Source of the DNA: Streptomyces sp. NBC_00083
GTDB taxonomy: Bacteria > Actinomycetota > Actinomycetes > Streptomycetales > Streptomycetaceae
DNA length: 64,000 bases
Reading direction: 5' to 3'
Assembly (NCBI RefSeq): GCF_026343295.1
Contig: NZ_JAPELY010000002.1
Location: 310,001-374,000 of the forward strand
The notes beneath the pieces are model-generated. The model searched no databases. It was not told the DNA's origin and saw only the letters and a list, made by a program, of their open reading frames with translations. Of the stretch, positions 40,017 through 44,404 are shown one piece after another. The position numbers were made by a program, and so were the translations under genes. Every line of letters starts with the position of its first letter. The first letter of the stretch is position 1.

Positions 40017-40772
40017 TCACACCGGCAGCCGGCGGAACACCCCGCGCGGCACGTGCCGCAGCGCGGACATCACCAGCCGCATCGCGCCGGGCACCCACAC
40101 CACCTCGGCCCGTCGCCGCAGCCCCGTCTCGATGGCGAGGGCCACCGCCTCGGGCGTCGTGGCGAGCGGCGCCTCGGTGAGCCCGGCCGTCATCTTCGTA
40201 CGGACGAATCCGGGGCGTACGACCATGACGTGCACCCCGCTGCCGTGCAGCGCGTCGCCGAGGCCCTGGGCGAACACGTCGAGTCCGGCCTTGCTCGATC
40301 CGTAGATGAAGTTGCTGCGCCGGGCGCGCTCGCCGGCCACCGACGACAGCACGACGAGCGAGCCGTGGCCCTGGGCCTGGAGCGCCTTCGCGCAGACGAG
40401 GCCGGCGGAGACCGCGCCGGTGTAGTTGGTCTGCGCGACGCGTACCGCGGCGAGCGGCTCGCCCTCGTCGCGGGACTGGTCGCCGAGCACCCCGAACGCG
40501 AGCAGCACCATGTCGATGTCGCCCTCGGCGAACACCTTGCCGAGGGCGACCTCGTGCGCGGCGGGGTCGAGGGCGTCGAAGGCGACGGTGTGGACGTCCG
40601 CGCCCAGCTCGCGCAGACCGGCCGCCGCCGCGTCGAGGGCGGGCGAGGGGCGGCCCGCGAGCCAGACCGTACGGGTGCGGCGGGCCACCAGGCGGCGGGC
40701 GGTGGCGAGGCCGATCTCGGACGTACCACCGAGCACGAGCAGCGATTGCGGGGTGCCGAACGCGTCCTTCAT
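40017..40772 (-). CDS. dprE2: Decaprenylphospho-beta-D-erythro-pentofuranosid-2-ulose 2-reductase
   Basis: The 251-residue short-chain dehydrogenase has VLGGTSEIGLATA for NAD(P)H binding and the catalytic Tyr-x3-Lys in FIYGSSKAGLDVF, with Ser in VVLSSVAGER. QSLLVLGGTSEIG and the C-terminal membrane-associating WVPGAMRLVMSALRHVPR are typical of DprE2. It reduces the 2-keto intermediate made by DprE1 to decaprenylphosphoryl arabinose. The dprE1 gene lies 46 bp upstream on the same strand. Confidence 0.9.
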   Translation of the reverse strand: MKDAFGTPQSLLVLGGTSEIGLATARRLVARRTRTVWLAGRPSPALDAAAAGLRELGADVHTVAFDALDPAAHEVALGKVFAEGDIDMVLLAFGVLGDQSRDEGEPLAAVRVAQTNYTGAVSAGLVCAKALQAQGHGSLVVLSSVAGERARRSNFIYGSSKAGLDVFAQGLGDALHGSGVHVMVVRPGFVRTKMTAGLTEAPLATTPEAVALAIETGLRRRAEVVWVPGAMRLVMSALRHVPRGVFRRLPV

Positions 40773-40818: not shown

Positions 40819-42228
40819 TCACAGGCCCAGGCGGCGGCTCATGTCCGAGGTGAAGACTCCGCGTGGGTCCAACTCGGCGCGCAGCGAACGGAATTGGGGC
40901 AGCATCGGATACATGCGCTCGACCAGCTCCGGGCGCATCCGCGCGTCCTTCGCGAGGTAGACGCGGCCGCCCGCGCCGGCCACCTGCTCGTCCAGCTCGT
41001 CGAGGAGGAGGCCGAGACCCGGCAGCTTGGCGGGGATGTCGAGGGCGAGGGTCCAGCCGGGGAGGGGGAACGACAGCCAGCCGGGGTCGGCCTCGCCGAA
41101 GCGTTTGAGCACGGCGAGGAACGAGGGGCAGCCGTGCCGCGAGATGCGGCGCACGATGGCGCGCAGGGCCTCCTCCTGGCCGTACCCGACGACGAACTGG
41201 TACTGCACGAAGCCGCCGCGCCCGTAGACGCGGTTCCAGTGCGGCACCCCGTCGAGGGGGTGGAAGAAGGTCGAGATGCGCTGGAGTTCGCCCGTGCGGT
41301 GCTTGGGCGCCTTGCGGTACCAGAGCTCGTTGAACGCGGTGACGGAGGCGCGGCCGAGCAGCCCCTCGGGCAGGAAGGACGGCGCGGCCGGCAGCCGGCG
41401 CGGCCGGAAGGCGAGCGGGGTGCGGGCGGCGCGGGGCGGCAGCATGTCGAGCGGGGCGTGTTCGCCGCGGGTCAGCACCGCGCGCCCGGTCGCGCCGCCC
41501 CGTGCGAGCAGGTCGATCCAGGCCACCGAGTAGCGGTAGCGGTGGTCGCCCGATTCGAGCCGCGTCATCAAGTCGTCCAGGTCCACCGCCCGTTCGGTGT
41601 CGACGGCCATCAACGAGGTCTGGACCGGCAGGAGTTGGATCGTGGCGCGCAGGATCACTCCGGTCAGGCCCATGCCGCCGGCCGTCGCGTCGAACAGCTC
41701 GCTGTCCGCGTCGACGGTGCGTACCGTGCCGTCGGCGGTGAGCAGGTCGAGGGAGCGGACATGGCGGGTGAAGGAGCCCGAGACGTGGTGGTTCTTGCCG
41801 TGGATGTCGGCGCCGATCGCCCCGCCGACCGTGACGTAGCGGGTGCCGGGGGTCACCGGGACGAACCAGCCGAGCGGCAGCAGCACCTCCATCAGGCGGT
41901 GCAGGCTGACGCCCGCGTCGCAGACGACCACGCCGGCCTCGACGTCCACGGTGCGGATGCGGTCGAGTCCGGTCATGTCGAGGACCGCGCCGCCCGCGTT
42001 CTGTGCGGCGTCCCCGTACGCCCTGCCGAGCCCGCGGGCGATGGTGCCGCGCGCGCCGCACGCCCGCACGGCGTCCGCCGCCTCCTCGTAGCTGCGGGGG
42101 CGGAACAGCCGGGCCGTGGTGGGGGAGGTGCGGCCCCAGCCGCTCACGGACGTCGGGGCGCCGGCGGGTGCGGGCACGGTGTCGGGCCCGGTGGTGGGCG
42201 CCGTGTCGGGTGTCGTCTCGGCAGACAT
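40819..42228 (-). CDS. dprE1: Decaprenylphosphoryl-beta-D-ribose 2'-oxidase
   Basis: The 469-residue FAD oxidoreductase has the flavin-binding segments RGLGRAYGDAAQN and GTRYVTVGGAIGADIHGKNHH, and the C-terminal YLAKDAR whose Lys matches the catalytic Lys418 of mycobacterial DprE1. At the place of mycobacterial Cys387, the covalent target of benzothiazinones, this protein has Ala395 (GWTLALD against GWNVCVD, from memory). The first 30 residues are Thr/Pro-rich. ATG 42228 has only a weak ribosome site. It diverges from the PAP2-UbiA-GtrA operon. Confidence 0.92.
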   Translation of the reverse strand: MSAETTPDTAPTTGPDTVPAPAGAPTSVSGWGRTSPTTARLFRPRSYEEAADAVRACGARGTIARGLGRAYGDAAQNAGGAVLDMTGLDRIRTVDVEAGVVVCDAGVSLHRLMEVLLPLGWFVPVTPGTRYVTVGGAIGADIHGKNHHVSGSFTRHVRSLDLLTADGTVRTVDADSELFDATAGGMGLTGVILRATIQLLPVQTSLMAVDTERAVDLDDLMTRLESGDHRYRYSVAWIDLLARGGATGRAVLTRGEHAPLDMLPPRAARTPLAFRPRRLPAAPSFLPEGLLGRASVTAFNELWYRKAPKHRTGELQRISTFFHPLDGVPHWNRVYGRGGFVQYQFVVGYGQEEALRAIVRRISRHGCPSFLAVLKRFGEADPGWLSFPLPGWTLALDIPAKLPGLGLLLDELDEQVAGAGGRVYLAKDARMRPELVERMYPMLPQFRSLRAELDPRGVFTSDMSRRLGL

Positions 42229-42426: not shown

Positions 42427-42984
42427 ATGGAAGAGGGGTGGCAGATGCAGAGACCGTCGTGCGCCGACGCCGACGAGCGGCTCCTGGCCGCGCTGCGCGA
42501 CTGCGGCGCGGACCCGCGGGTGGCCGCCGCCGCCCGCACCCTGTCCTGGGCCGGTGAGCACGGCGCGCTCTGGCTCGCGGCCGGGCTCGCGGGCGCCGCA
42601 GTCGACCGGGACCGGCGCGGCCCCTGGCTGCGCGGTACCGCCCTGGTCGCCGCCGCCCACCTCGCCAGCATGGGCGTCAAGCGCCTGGTGCGCCGACCGC
42701 GCCCGTCGCTCGCCGCGGCCGAACCCCTGGTGCGGACCGCGGGGCGGCACTCCTTCCCCAGCTCGCACGCCAGCTCCGCGGCGGCCGCCGCCGTCGCCTA
42801 CGGGGCGCTGCGGCCCGCCGGCGCGCACCTGGTGCCGCCGCTCGCCGCCGCCGTGTGCGTCTCGCGCCTGGTCGCCGGGGTGCACTACCCGAGCGACATC
42901 GCGGCCGGCGCGCTGCTCGGCGGTGTCACCGCGCGGGCGGGCGCGGCCTGGATGCTGGGCGCCCTCGAAGGAGCGCGCCGATGA
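42427..42984 (+). CDS. PAP2-family phosphatase (Rv3807c-like)
   Basis: The 185-residue membrane protein has the PAP2 triad motifs [15 protein letters not shown] and SRLVAGVHYPSD, with membrane segments between. In mycobacteria the homologous gene Rv3807c lies beside ubiA (Rv3806c) and is proposed to remove the phosphate from decaprenylphosphoryl-5-phosphoribose. The same order here supports that role. It overlaps the ubiA-like gene by ATGA. Confidence 0.88.
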   Translation: MEEGWQMQRPSCADADERLLAALRDCGADPRVAAAARTLSWAGEHGALWLAAGLAGAAVDRDRRGPWLRGTALVAAAHLASMGVKRLVRRPRPSLAAAEPLVRTAGRHSFPSSHASSAAAAAVAYGALRPAGAHLVPPLAAAVCVSRLVAGVHYPSDIAAGALLGGVTARAGAAWMLGALEGARR

Positions 42985-43931
42985 CCGAGCCCGGCGTCGT
43001 CCTCCTCGACGACCACGGGGCCGCGGCGGCCCCGGCGCACCGGCGCCTGCTCGCGCTGCCCGGCGCCCTCGTGCGGACCGCGCGGCCCCGGCAGTGGGTC
43101 AAGAACGTGCTCGTGATGGCGGCGCCGGCCGCCGCGGGACGGCTGTCGAGTCCGCACGACATCACCCGACTCGCCCTGGTCTTCTGCCTGTTCACCGCCG
43201 CGGCGTCGGCCGTCTACCTCATCAACGACGCCCGCGACGCCGAGGCCGACCGCGCCCACCCCGACAAGTGCCGCCGCCCGGTCGCCGCCGGGCAGGTGCC
43301 GGTCGCCGCCGCCTACGCGGCCGGCGGGGTCCTCGCGGTGCTCGCTCCGCTGGCCGCCGCGCTGACCTGCAACGCGATGACGGCCACGCTGCTGTCGTCG
43401 TACGTCGTCATGCAGCTCGCCTACTGCGTCAAGCTCAAGCACGTCCTCGTCGTCGACCTGGTCGTGGTCACCACCGGGTTCCTGATGCGGGCGATGACCG
43501 GCGGAGTCGCGCTCGGCATCCCGCTCTCCCGCTGGTTCCTCATCACCGCCGGGTTCGGCGCCCTGTTCATGGTCTCGGCCAAGCGGTACTCCGAGGCGCT
43601 CCGGATGGAGGGCAAGGGCGCCGCCACCCGCGCGCTCCTCGACGCCTACACCACCGGCTATCTGCGCTTCGTGTGGCAGCTCGCCGCGGGCGTCGCCGTG
43701 CTCGCGTACTGCATGTGGGCGCTGGAGGCGGGCGGTGTCGCCAACGGCGCGCTGCTGCCCTGGCGGCAGCTGTCGATGGTGCCCTTCATCGGGGCGATCC
43801 TGCGCTACGCCGTCTTCGCCGACCGGGGCAGCGCCGGCGCCCCCGAGGACGTCGTGCTGCACGACCGCGCCCTCGCCGTCATCGGCCTCGTCTGGGTCGC
43901 CATGTACGCGCTCGCGGTGACCGACCTGTGA
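42981..43931 (+). CDS. Decaprenyl-phosphate phosphoribosyltransferase (UbiA family)
   Basis: The 316-residue protein has eight or nine membrane spans and the UbiA motif NDARDAEADRAHPDKCRRP, very close to the NDxxDxExDRxHPxKxxRP of mycobacterial Rv3806c, which moves phosphoribose from PRPP to decaprenyl phosphate. RPRQWVKNVLV at the start and YCVKLKHVLVVDL are also family-typical. It is coupled by ATGA to the PAP2 gene and by GTGA to gtrA. Confidence 0.92.
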   Translation: MTEPGVVLLDDHGAAAAPAHRRLLALPGALVRTARPRQWVKNVLVMAAPAAAGRLSSPHDITRLALVFCLFTAAASAVYLINDARDAEADRAHPDKCRRPVAAGQVPVAAAYAAGGVLAVLAPLAAALTCNAMTATLLSSYVVMQLAYCVKLKHVLVVDLVVVTTGFLMRAMTGGVALGIPLSRWFLITAGFGALFMVSAKRYSEALRMEGKGAATRALLDAYTTGYLRFVWQLAAGVAVLAYCMWALEAGGVANGALLPWRQLSMVPFIGAILRYAVFADRGSAGAPEDVVLHDRALAVIGLVWVAMYALAVTDL

Positions 43932-44404
43932 GCACCGCCCGCTCCATCGCCCGGTCCGAGGTGGTCGGCTTCGCACTGGCCGGGGTCTGCGCGTACGCCG
44001 TCGACCTCGGCCTCTTCGTGTGGCTGCGCTCGGGCCTCGGCTGGGACCCGGTCGCCGCCAAGTCCCTCTCGTTCGTGGCCGGTTGCACGGTCGCCTACCT
44101 CGGCAACGCCTTCGGCACCTACCGGGGGCGCGGGGCCGGCCGGCGCGAGTACGTCGTCTTCCTCGCCGTGAACCTCGCGGGTGCCCTGGTCCAGCTCCTG
44201 TGCATCGCGGTCACGCACTACGGCCTCGGGTACACGTCGCCGCGCGCCGACACCCTCTCGGGAGCGGTGTTCGGCATGGCCCTCGCGACCTGTTTGCGCT
44301 TCTGGGGAACGAGAACGCTGGTCTTCGGCGGGGGACCGGAAGGATTGCCTCCGCACGGACACGGTCGAGCCGGAGAGGGTAGTCGTACGTCATGGACTGG
44401 CTGA
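43928..44404 (+). CDS. GtrA-family membrane protein (Rv3789-like)
   Basis: The 158-residue protein has four membrane spans (VGFALAGVCAYAVDLGLFVW, LSFVAGCTVAYLGNAFG, FLAVNLAGALVQLLC, GAVFGMALATCLRFW), the GtrA layout. In mycobacteria the GtrA protein Rv3789 lies beside dprE1/dprE2 and has been proposed as a DPA flippase or anchoring partner. The 3' end overlaps the yihY start by 13 bp. Confidence 0.88.
   Translation: MSTARSIARSEVVGFALAGVCAYAVDLGLFVWLRSGLGWDPVAAKSLSFVAGCTVAYLGNAFGTYRGRGAGRREYVVFLAVNLAGALVQLLCIAVTHYGLGYTSPRADTLSGAVFGMALATCLRFWGTRTLVFGGGPEGLPPHGHGRAGEGSRTSWTG

Follow-up and report, generated by a model that had tools for sequence, protein, structure and literature searches.

The best described relatives of the enzyme considered here are the mycobacterial DprE1 proteins (M. 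tuberculosis Rv3790; M. smegmatis MSMEG_6382), in which benzothiazinones attack a cysteine, Cys387 in M. tuberculosis numbering. The available portions of PMC3206020 and PMC6015584 call this Cys highly conserved among orthologues from various Actinobacteria and attribute the natural benzothiazinone resistance of M. avium and M. aurum to Ala and Ser, respectively. According to the accessible part of PMC4608729, a second DprE1 of Nocardia brasiliensis carries Ser, while S. somaliensis has only DprE1-like proteins of low identity. As far as the accessible text of the open-licence PMC literature goes, no report was found of a Streptomyces DprE1 with Ala or of a single origin of the Cys.

Here we consider a dprE1 gene with Ala at this position from Streptomyces sp. 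NBC_00083. It lies within a stretch of 64,000 nucleotides, which as a whole is called the window below. The analysis turns round the direction assumed for the Cys/Ala change and yields a lead on altered DprE1 copies in the genus.

The gene, its product and its neighbours

The features that bear on the argument are as follows, with positions counted from the first letter of the window:

40017..40772, minus strand: dprE2 (251 aa), immediately downstream of dprE1 and encoding its SDR-type 2-keto reductase partner (NF053786, 380 bits, cut-off 250)
40819..42228, minus strand: dprE1, decaprenylphosphoryl-beta-D-ribose 2-oxidase, 469 aa from the ATG at 42228 (NF053785, the NCBIfam equivalog model for DprE1, 680.1 bits against a cut-off of 500; PDB 4aut; model compared with 4p8m)
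40948..40950, minus strand: codon of Lys427, which aligns to Lys418 of M. tuberculosis DprE1 (position counted from the ATG at 42228)
41044..41046, minus strand: GCC codon of Ala395, at the Cys387 position of M. tuberculosis DprE1 (alignment and position map)
42427..42984, plus strand: PAP2-superfamily phosphatase, 185 aa, divergent from dprE1 (PF01569, 60.8 bits, gathering 27.2; NCBIfam matches below cut-off only)
42981..43931, plus strand: UbiA-family decaprenyl-phosphate phosphoribosyltransferase, i.e., DPPR synthase (NF008978, 413 bits, cut-off 207, for the frame 42855-43931)
43928..44404, plus strand: GtrA-family membrane protein, inferred GTG start (PF04138, 80 bits, gathering 26.1, for 43901-44404)

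The minus strand of 41038-41052 reads TLALD and the plus strand VEGEG, and the residue of interest therefore belongs to the minus-strand gene 40819-42228. An alternative GTG-started frame for dprE1 of 498 aa begins upstream of the ATG; for the DPPR synthase, the ATG at 42981 appears preferable to the GTG at 42855. The match of the product to PDB 4aut cannot be ascribed to chance, given its E-value of 1.3e-124. The window DprE1 is an ordinary member of its family and the observation on its residue 395 is accurate, with its enzyme activity, pathway product and drug insensitivity all being putative. An AlphaFold2 model built on 12 aligned sequences (mean pLDDT 83, pTM 0.84) points to the FAD-binding fold of solved DprE1: its best structural match is 4p8m (Z 45.1, rmsd 2.3 A over 414 residues), and mycobacterial DprE1 entries are the first 31 among the 50 structural matches listed (two titles omit the name), the next among these being alditol oxidase and galactonolactone dehydrogenase (Z ~32).

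In HMMER alignments the segment GWTLALD, which begins at residue 391 of the window protein, stands opposite GWNICVD of PDB chain 21gq (461 residues; in the sequence group of 4kw5, whose title names M. tuberculosis DprE1), with no gap nearby, and opposite GWNVCVD of 4aut (in the sequence group of 4f4q, whose title names M. smegmatis DprE1), the latter being the form that the preliminary description of this DNA had used for its comparison. The position map from M. tuberculosis to the window, with 207 of 442 aligned residues identical, takes C387 to A395 and K418 to K427. The gap-free alignment and the map uphold that description in placing Ala, numbered 395, at the Cys387 position, where a benzothiazinone-susceptible enzyme has Cys, and in regarding the catalytic Lys as retained (Lys427, aligned to Lys418). 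None of these alignments places a Cys of the window protein at the equivalent position. Misalignment of residue 395 is ruled out by the gap-free flanking SFPxPGW and DxP and by the structural match spanning residues 23-469.

Twenty-one of the 29 inspected positions are identical to M. tuberculosis, including (in its numbering) Y60, G117, H132, K134, W230, L317, R325, Q334, Q336, L363, V365, K367, F369, Y415 and K418. Nine of these, chosen as what we take to be known DprE1 pocket positions, were tested as active-site residues, and all nine are kept (Y60, G117, H132, K134, Q334, Q336, K367, Y415, K418); Y60, K134, Q336, Y415 and K418, identical in the window protein, are presumably active-site residues of DprE1. 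The eight differing positions, from M. tuberculosis to the window, are S228V, L275A, Y314F, G321P, N364A, F366L, N385T and C387A. At the four for which conservation was counted (S228V, Y314F, N385T, C387A), the window letter is the commonest one outside family f3, and therefore none of these is specific to the strain; from its identity to M. tuberculosis DprE1 and its motif, f3 is taken as probably the Mycobacteriaceae in the broad GTDB sense. Thus, the window enzyme has in common with mycobacterial DprE1 the predicted fold and the nine pocket residues, including K418, but differs from it in having Ala for Cys387, Thr for Asn385, Phe for Tyr314 and Val for Ser228. Of these differences, Y314F, N385T and S228V could also alter inhibitor binding, that of non-covalent inhibitors included.

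In mycobacteria too, dprE2 presumably adjoins dprE1, as it does in the window. The combination of dprE1-dprE2 with PAP2-UbiA-GtrA is the set expected for making decaprenylphosphoryl-arabinose, and the five parts occur in identical order at four other loci (L031, L032, L034, L103). DprE1, as an FAD-dependent 2'-oxidase, would together with DprE2 turn decaprenylphosphoryl-ribose into decaprenylphosphoryl-arabinose, and the window dprE1 would be encoded beside the other genes needed for this lipid. A second, weaker UbiA-family match in the window genome, at G000:C2:800548-801444, scores 164 bits, below the DPPR synthase cut-off.

The arabinosyltransferase search of the window genome (7.8 Mb, 6 contigs) covered three families, and none of them, Emb C-terminal (PF14896), AftD (PF11847) or AftA_C (PF12249), has a match at E up to 0.001, whereas the control, C. 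glutamicum, matches each. The usual mycobacterial arabinan route is hence not evident, and this, along with the altered active sites in the DprE1 copies of some Streptomyces (see below), could be taken to mean that the gene is a paralogue of DprE1 acting on another substrate, which would render the drug comparison meaningless. That possibility is nevertheless improbable in light of the score far above the DprE1 equivalog cut-off, the retention of nine of nine tested active-site residues, and the adjoining dprE2 and DPPR synthase, both of which exceed their own cut-offs.

Distribution and polarity of the cysteine

A census of the Cys position drew on partly overlapping sets of genomes, with 121 from the window's family, 296 each from the phylum and the class, and 81 from f3 (79 of the 81 with a DprE1 match), along with searches of the window's genus and close relatives. 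It comprises 368 loci, of which 350 are distinct over the last 400 residues, the window's own gene among them. The matches left out were, in the genus search, G014, G052, G053, G099 and pieces in G004 and G076; in the family search, eleven (G169, G188, G145, G139, G200, G177, one each of G138, G141 and G164, and two of G156); G437 in the phylum search; G542 and G686 in the class search; and those of six f3 genomes (G754, G756, G782, G783, G799, G814). Among the loci scored (family, phylum and class searches), 17 counted rows fall below the DprE1 cut-off, none with Cys.

Cys is present in 75 of the 92 distinct f3 sequences, the remainder having Ala (11), Ser (5) or Thr (1). By contrast, it is found in none of the 258 sequences elsewhere, the window copy included (235 Ala, 20 Thr, 3 Ser): the window's family has 159 Ala, 8 Thr and 3 Ser (n=170, with the window copy and with L111, which groups beside f3 and whose source genome has 7% contamination), and the remaining families of the phylum 76 Ala and 12 Thr (n=88). 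The conservation of the Cys across Actinobacteria stated in the available text of PMC3206020 and PMC6015584 is thus not shown by the present sample, in which it is confined to one family. The identity to M. tuberculosis DprE1 is 58-91% in f3, with a median of 76%, versus medians of 47% and 45% in the other groups. Among near relatives of the window, 109 of 110 loci have Ala and one has Ser (window's own included; duplicates kept), ruling out Ala as a peculiarity of the strain. In two genera of the window's family, the members sampled have Thr at the position (L112-L117 and L205; GWTLTLDFPTNT). Within f3, the five Ser rows are divergent second DprE1-like copies with the motif GFMLSLD (L328, L352, L355, L356, L365), which recall the second N. 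brasiliensis copy in the accessible part of PMC4608729.

A FastTree phylogeny of 216 rows (215 of the 350 census rows plus the window) was built with the Cys column removed and rooted on the most distant row, L326. Parsimony requires at least 16 changes at this column, an Ala root costing 16 and every other state 18. The 36 Cys rows on the tree, out of 75 in the census, all fall in a single f3 clade (47 rows, support 100), inside which two branches have gone back from Cys to Ala, one of nine rows (GWNVAMD) and the other of two (GWNIAVD). On this sampled tree the Cys has a single origin, and the nucleophile attacked by benzothiazinones would have arisen within f3. Which branch carried the gain is uncertain, because immediately beneath the Cys clade the reconstructed state is ambiguous (A, C, S or T) and nodes around f3 are partly weak (support 44 and 64). 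The parsimony state is Ala at the root and at each printed node on the window's path.

The preliminary description had spoken of the Cys being replaced by Ala; with Ala at the root and along the window's path, and no Cys in the 258 sequences outside f3, that direction is not supported, and the window lineage probably never had the Cys. These patterns make it very probable that the gene is a normal Streptomyces DprE1 in a lipid-linked arabinose gene set, that Ala is both ancestral in the family and its usual state, which would be why residue 395 is Ala, and that the Cys was gained within f3. One might instead envisage Ala395 as an adaptive self-resistance of the strain, with Streptomyces or their neighbours making nitro compounds that attack DprE1 and an ancestral Cys having been lost. 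The link between Ala at this site and resistance in M. avium, in the available text of PMC3206020, lends this some appeal; but Ala is usual both in the window's family (159/170) and in the other families of the phylum (76/88), and parsimony implies no Cys ancestor on the window's branch, making such an adaptation most improbable.

Altered DprE1 at loci without a DPPR synthase

Altered DprE1 proteins occur in 15 loci of the window's genus (L067, L098 of S. canus, L109 and L369-L380). At all 15, dprE2 and dprE1 lie beside a YihY/BrkB gene with no UbiA match, and at L109 and L369-L380 no PAP2, UbiA or GtrA match was found between dprE1 and YihY/BrkB. Each altered DprE1 has lost two to eight of the nine pocket residues, versus none in the 71 of 71 loci with a UbiA match. 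DprE1 is altered in 15 of the 17 loci without UbiA but with YihY, a figure that overstates the association because L369-L380 were picked for their divergent DprE1. In the 80 loci picked solely by their similarity to the window, UbiA is present in 68, each of which retains the nine residues; three without UbiA are altered (L067, L098, L109), four without UbiA nearby are unaltered (L100 and L102 of Streptacidiphilus, which have another gene order, and L039 and L081), and five have too little flank. No DPPR synthase above cut-off was found in any of the 12 whole genomes of L369-L380; five of these genomes with altered DprE1 have a weaker match, as the window genome does besides its own enzyme.

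On a tree of TrpS, YihY and DprE2 (73 loci), the altered, UbiA-less state changes four times. The changes are focused on the pocket: of 81 deeply conserved positions, those of the nine pocket residues are on average changed in 9.0 of the 15 loci, and the remaining ones in 1.04, with the Tyr415 position changed in 15/15 and Lys134 in 14/15. The FAD-loop glycines are untouched, and the DprE2 beside altered DprE1 keeps its YGSSK motif. Simple NG86 counts on these GC-rich genes, with pairs of dS 1.5 or more dropped and one third of the UbiA-bearing loci used for comparison, give a median pairwise dN/dS for DprE1 of 0.368 at altered loci (105 pairs) versus 0.244 at UbiA-bearing ones (276 pairs); the corresponding values are 0.210 and 0.218 for DprE2, and 0.383 and 0.471 for YihY. 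Taken together, these medians, the intact FAD-loop glycines and the concentration of changes in the pocket argue against a plain decay of the altered dprE1, although any function it retains is conjectural.

A tentative reading, which we hold to be possible though somewhat short of likely, is that the Streptomyces DprE1-DprE2 pair serves a role other than in a mycobacterial-type arabinan, and that in lineages that lost DPPR synthase DprE1 persists with an open reading frame and its FAD loop, either as a pseudoenzyme or as a flavoenzyme acting on a new substrate. The arabinose-lipid gene set together with the lack of Emb C-terminal, AftD and AftA_C matches in the window genome would then imply an unrecognised transferase using the lipid, and the substrate pocket of the altered copies may have been rewritten in parallel after loss of the DPPR synthase block.

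Implications for covalent inhibitors

The window enzyme has the Ala that M. avium DprE1, according to the available text on it, has at the equivalent of position 395. By this analogy, the enzyme can reasonably be predicted to be insensitive to covalent nitro inhibitors: without a thiol at 395, a nitroso inhibitor could not form the semimercaptal adduct, and the enzyme would therefore be inhibited reversibly at most. The histories of such alanines differ, in that the Ala groups of f3 (GWNVAMD, GWNIAVD) came from Cys, while the window branch implies no Cys stage; as a guess, M. avium belongs to one of these two f3 groups. In the accessible part of PMC4608729, the second N. brasiliensis DprE1 is, like the window enzyme, a homologue without the reactive Cys, but it sits beside a Cys-bearing copy, whereas the window genome has a single DprE1 match (searched at E up to 1e-100).

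For the organism, the prediction may not matter. Of the 101 genomes searched in the window's genus, 55 have a strong DprE1 match (E below 1e-100), and the gene therefore looks dispensable at genus level, so that little can be concluded about the organism from an insensitive enzyme; the many genomes of the genus without a strong match agree with the S. somaliensis observation in the accessible part of PMC4608729. The occurrence of Ala or Thr elsewhere in the sampled DprE1 family, along with the two returns to Ala within f3, suggests that the Cys is dispensable for catalysis. Its confinement to one family in the present sample would help explain the narrow action of the covalent DprE1 drugs.
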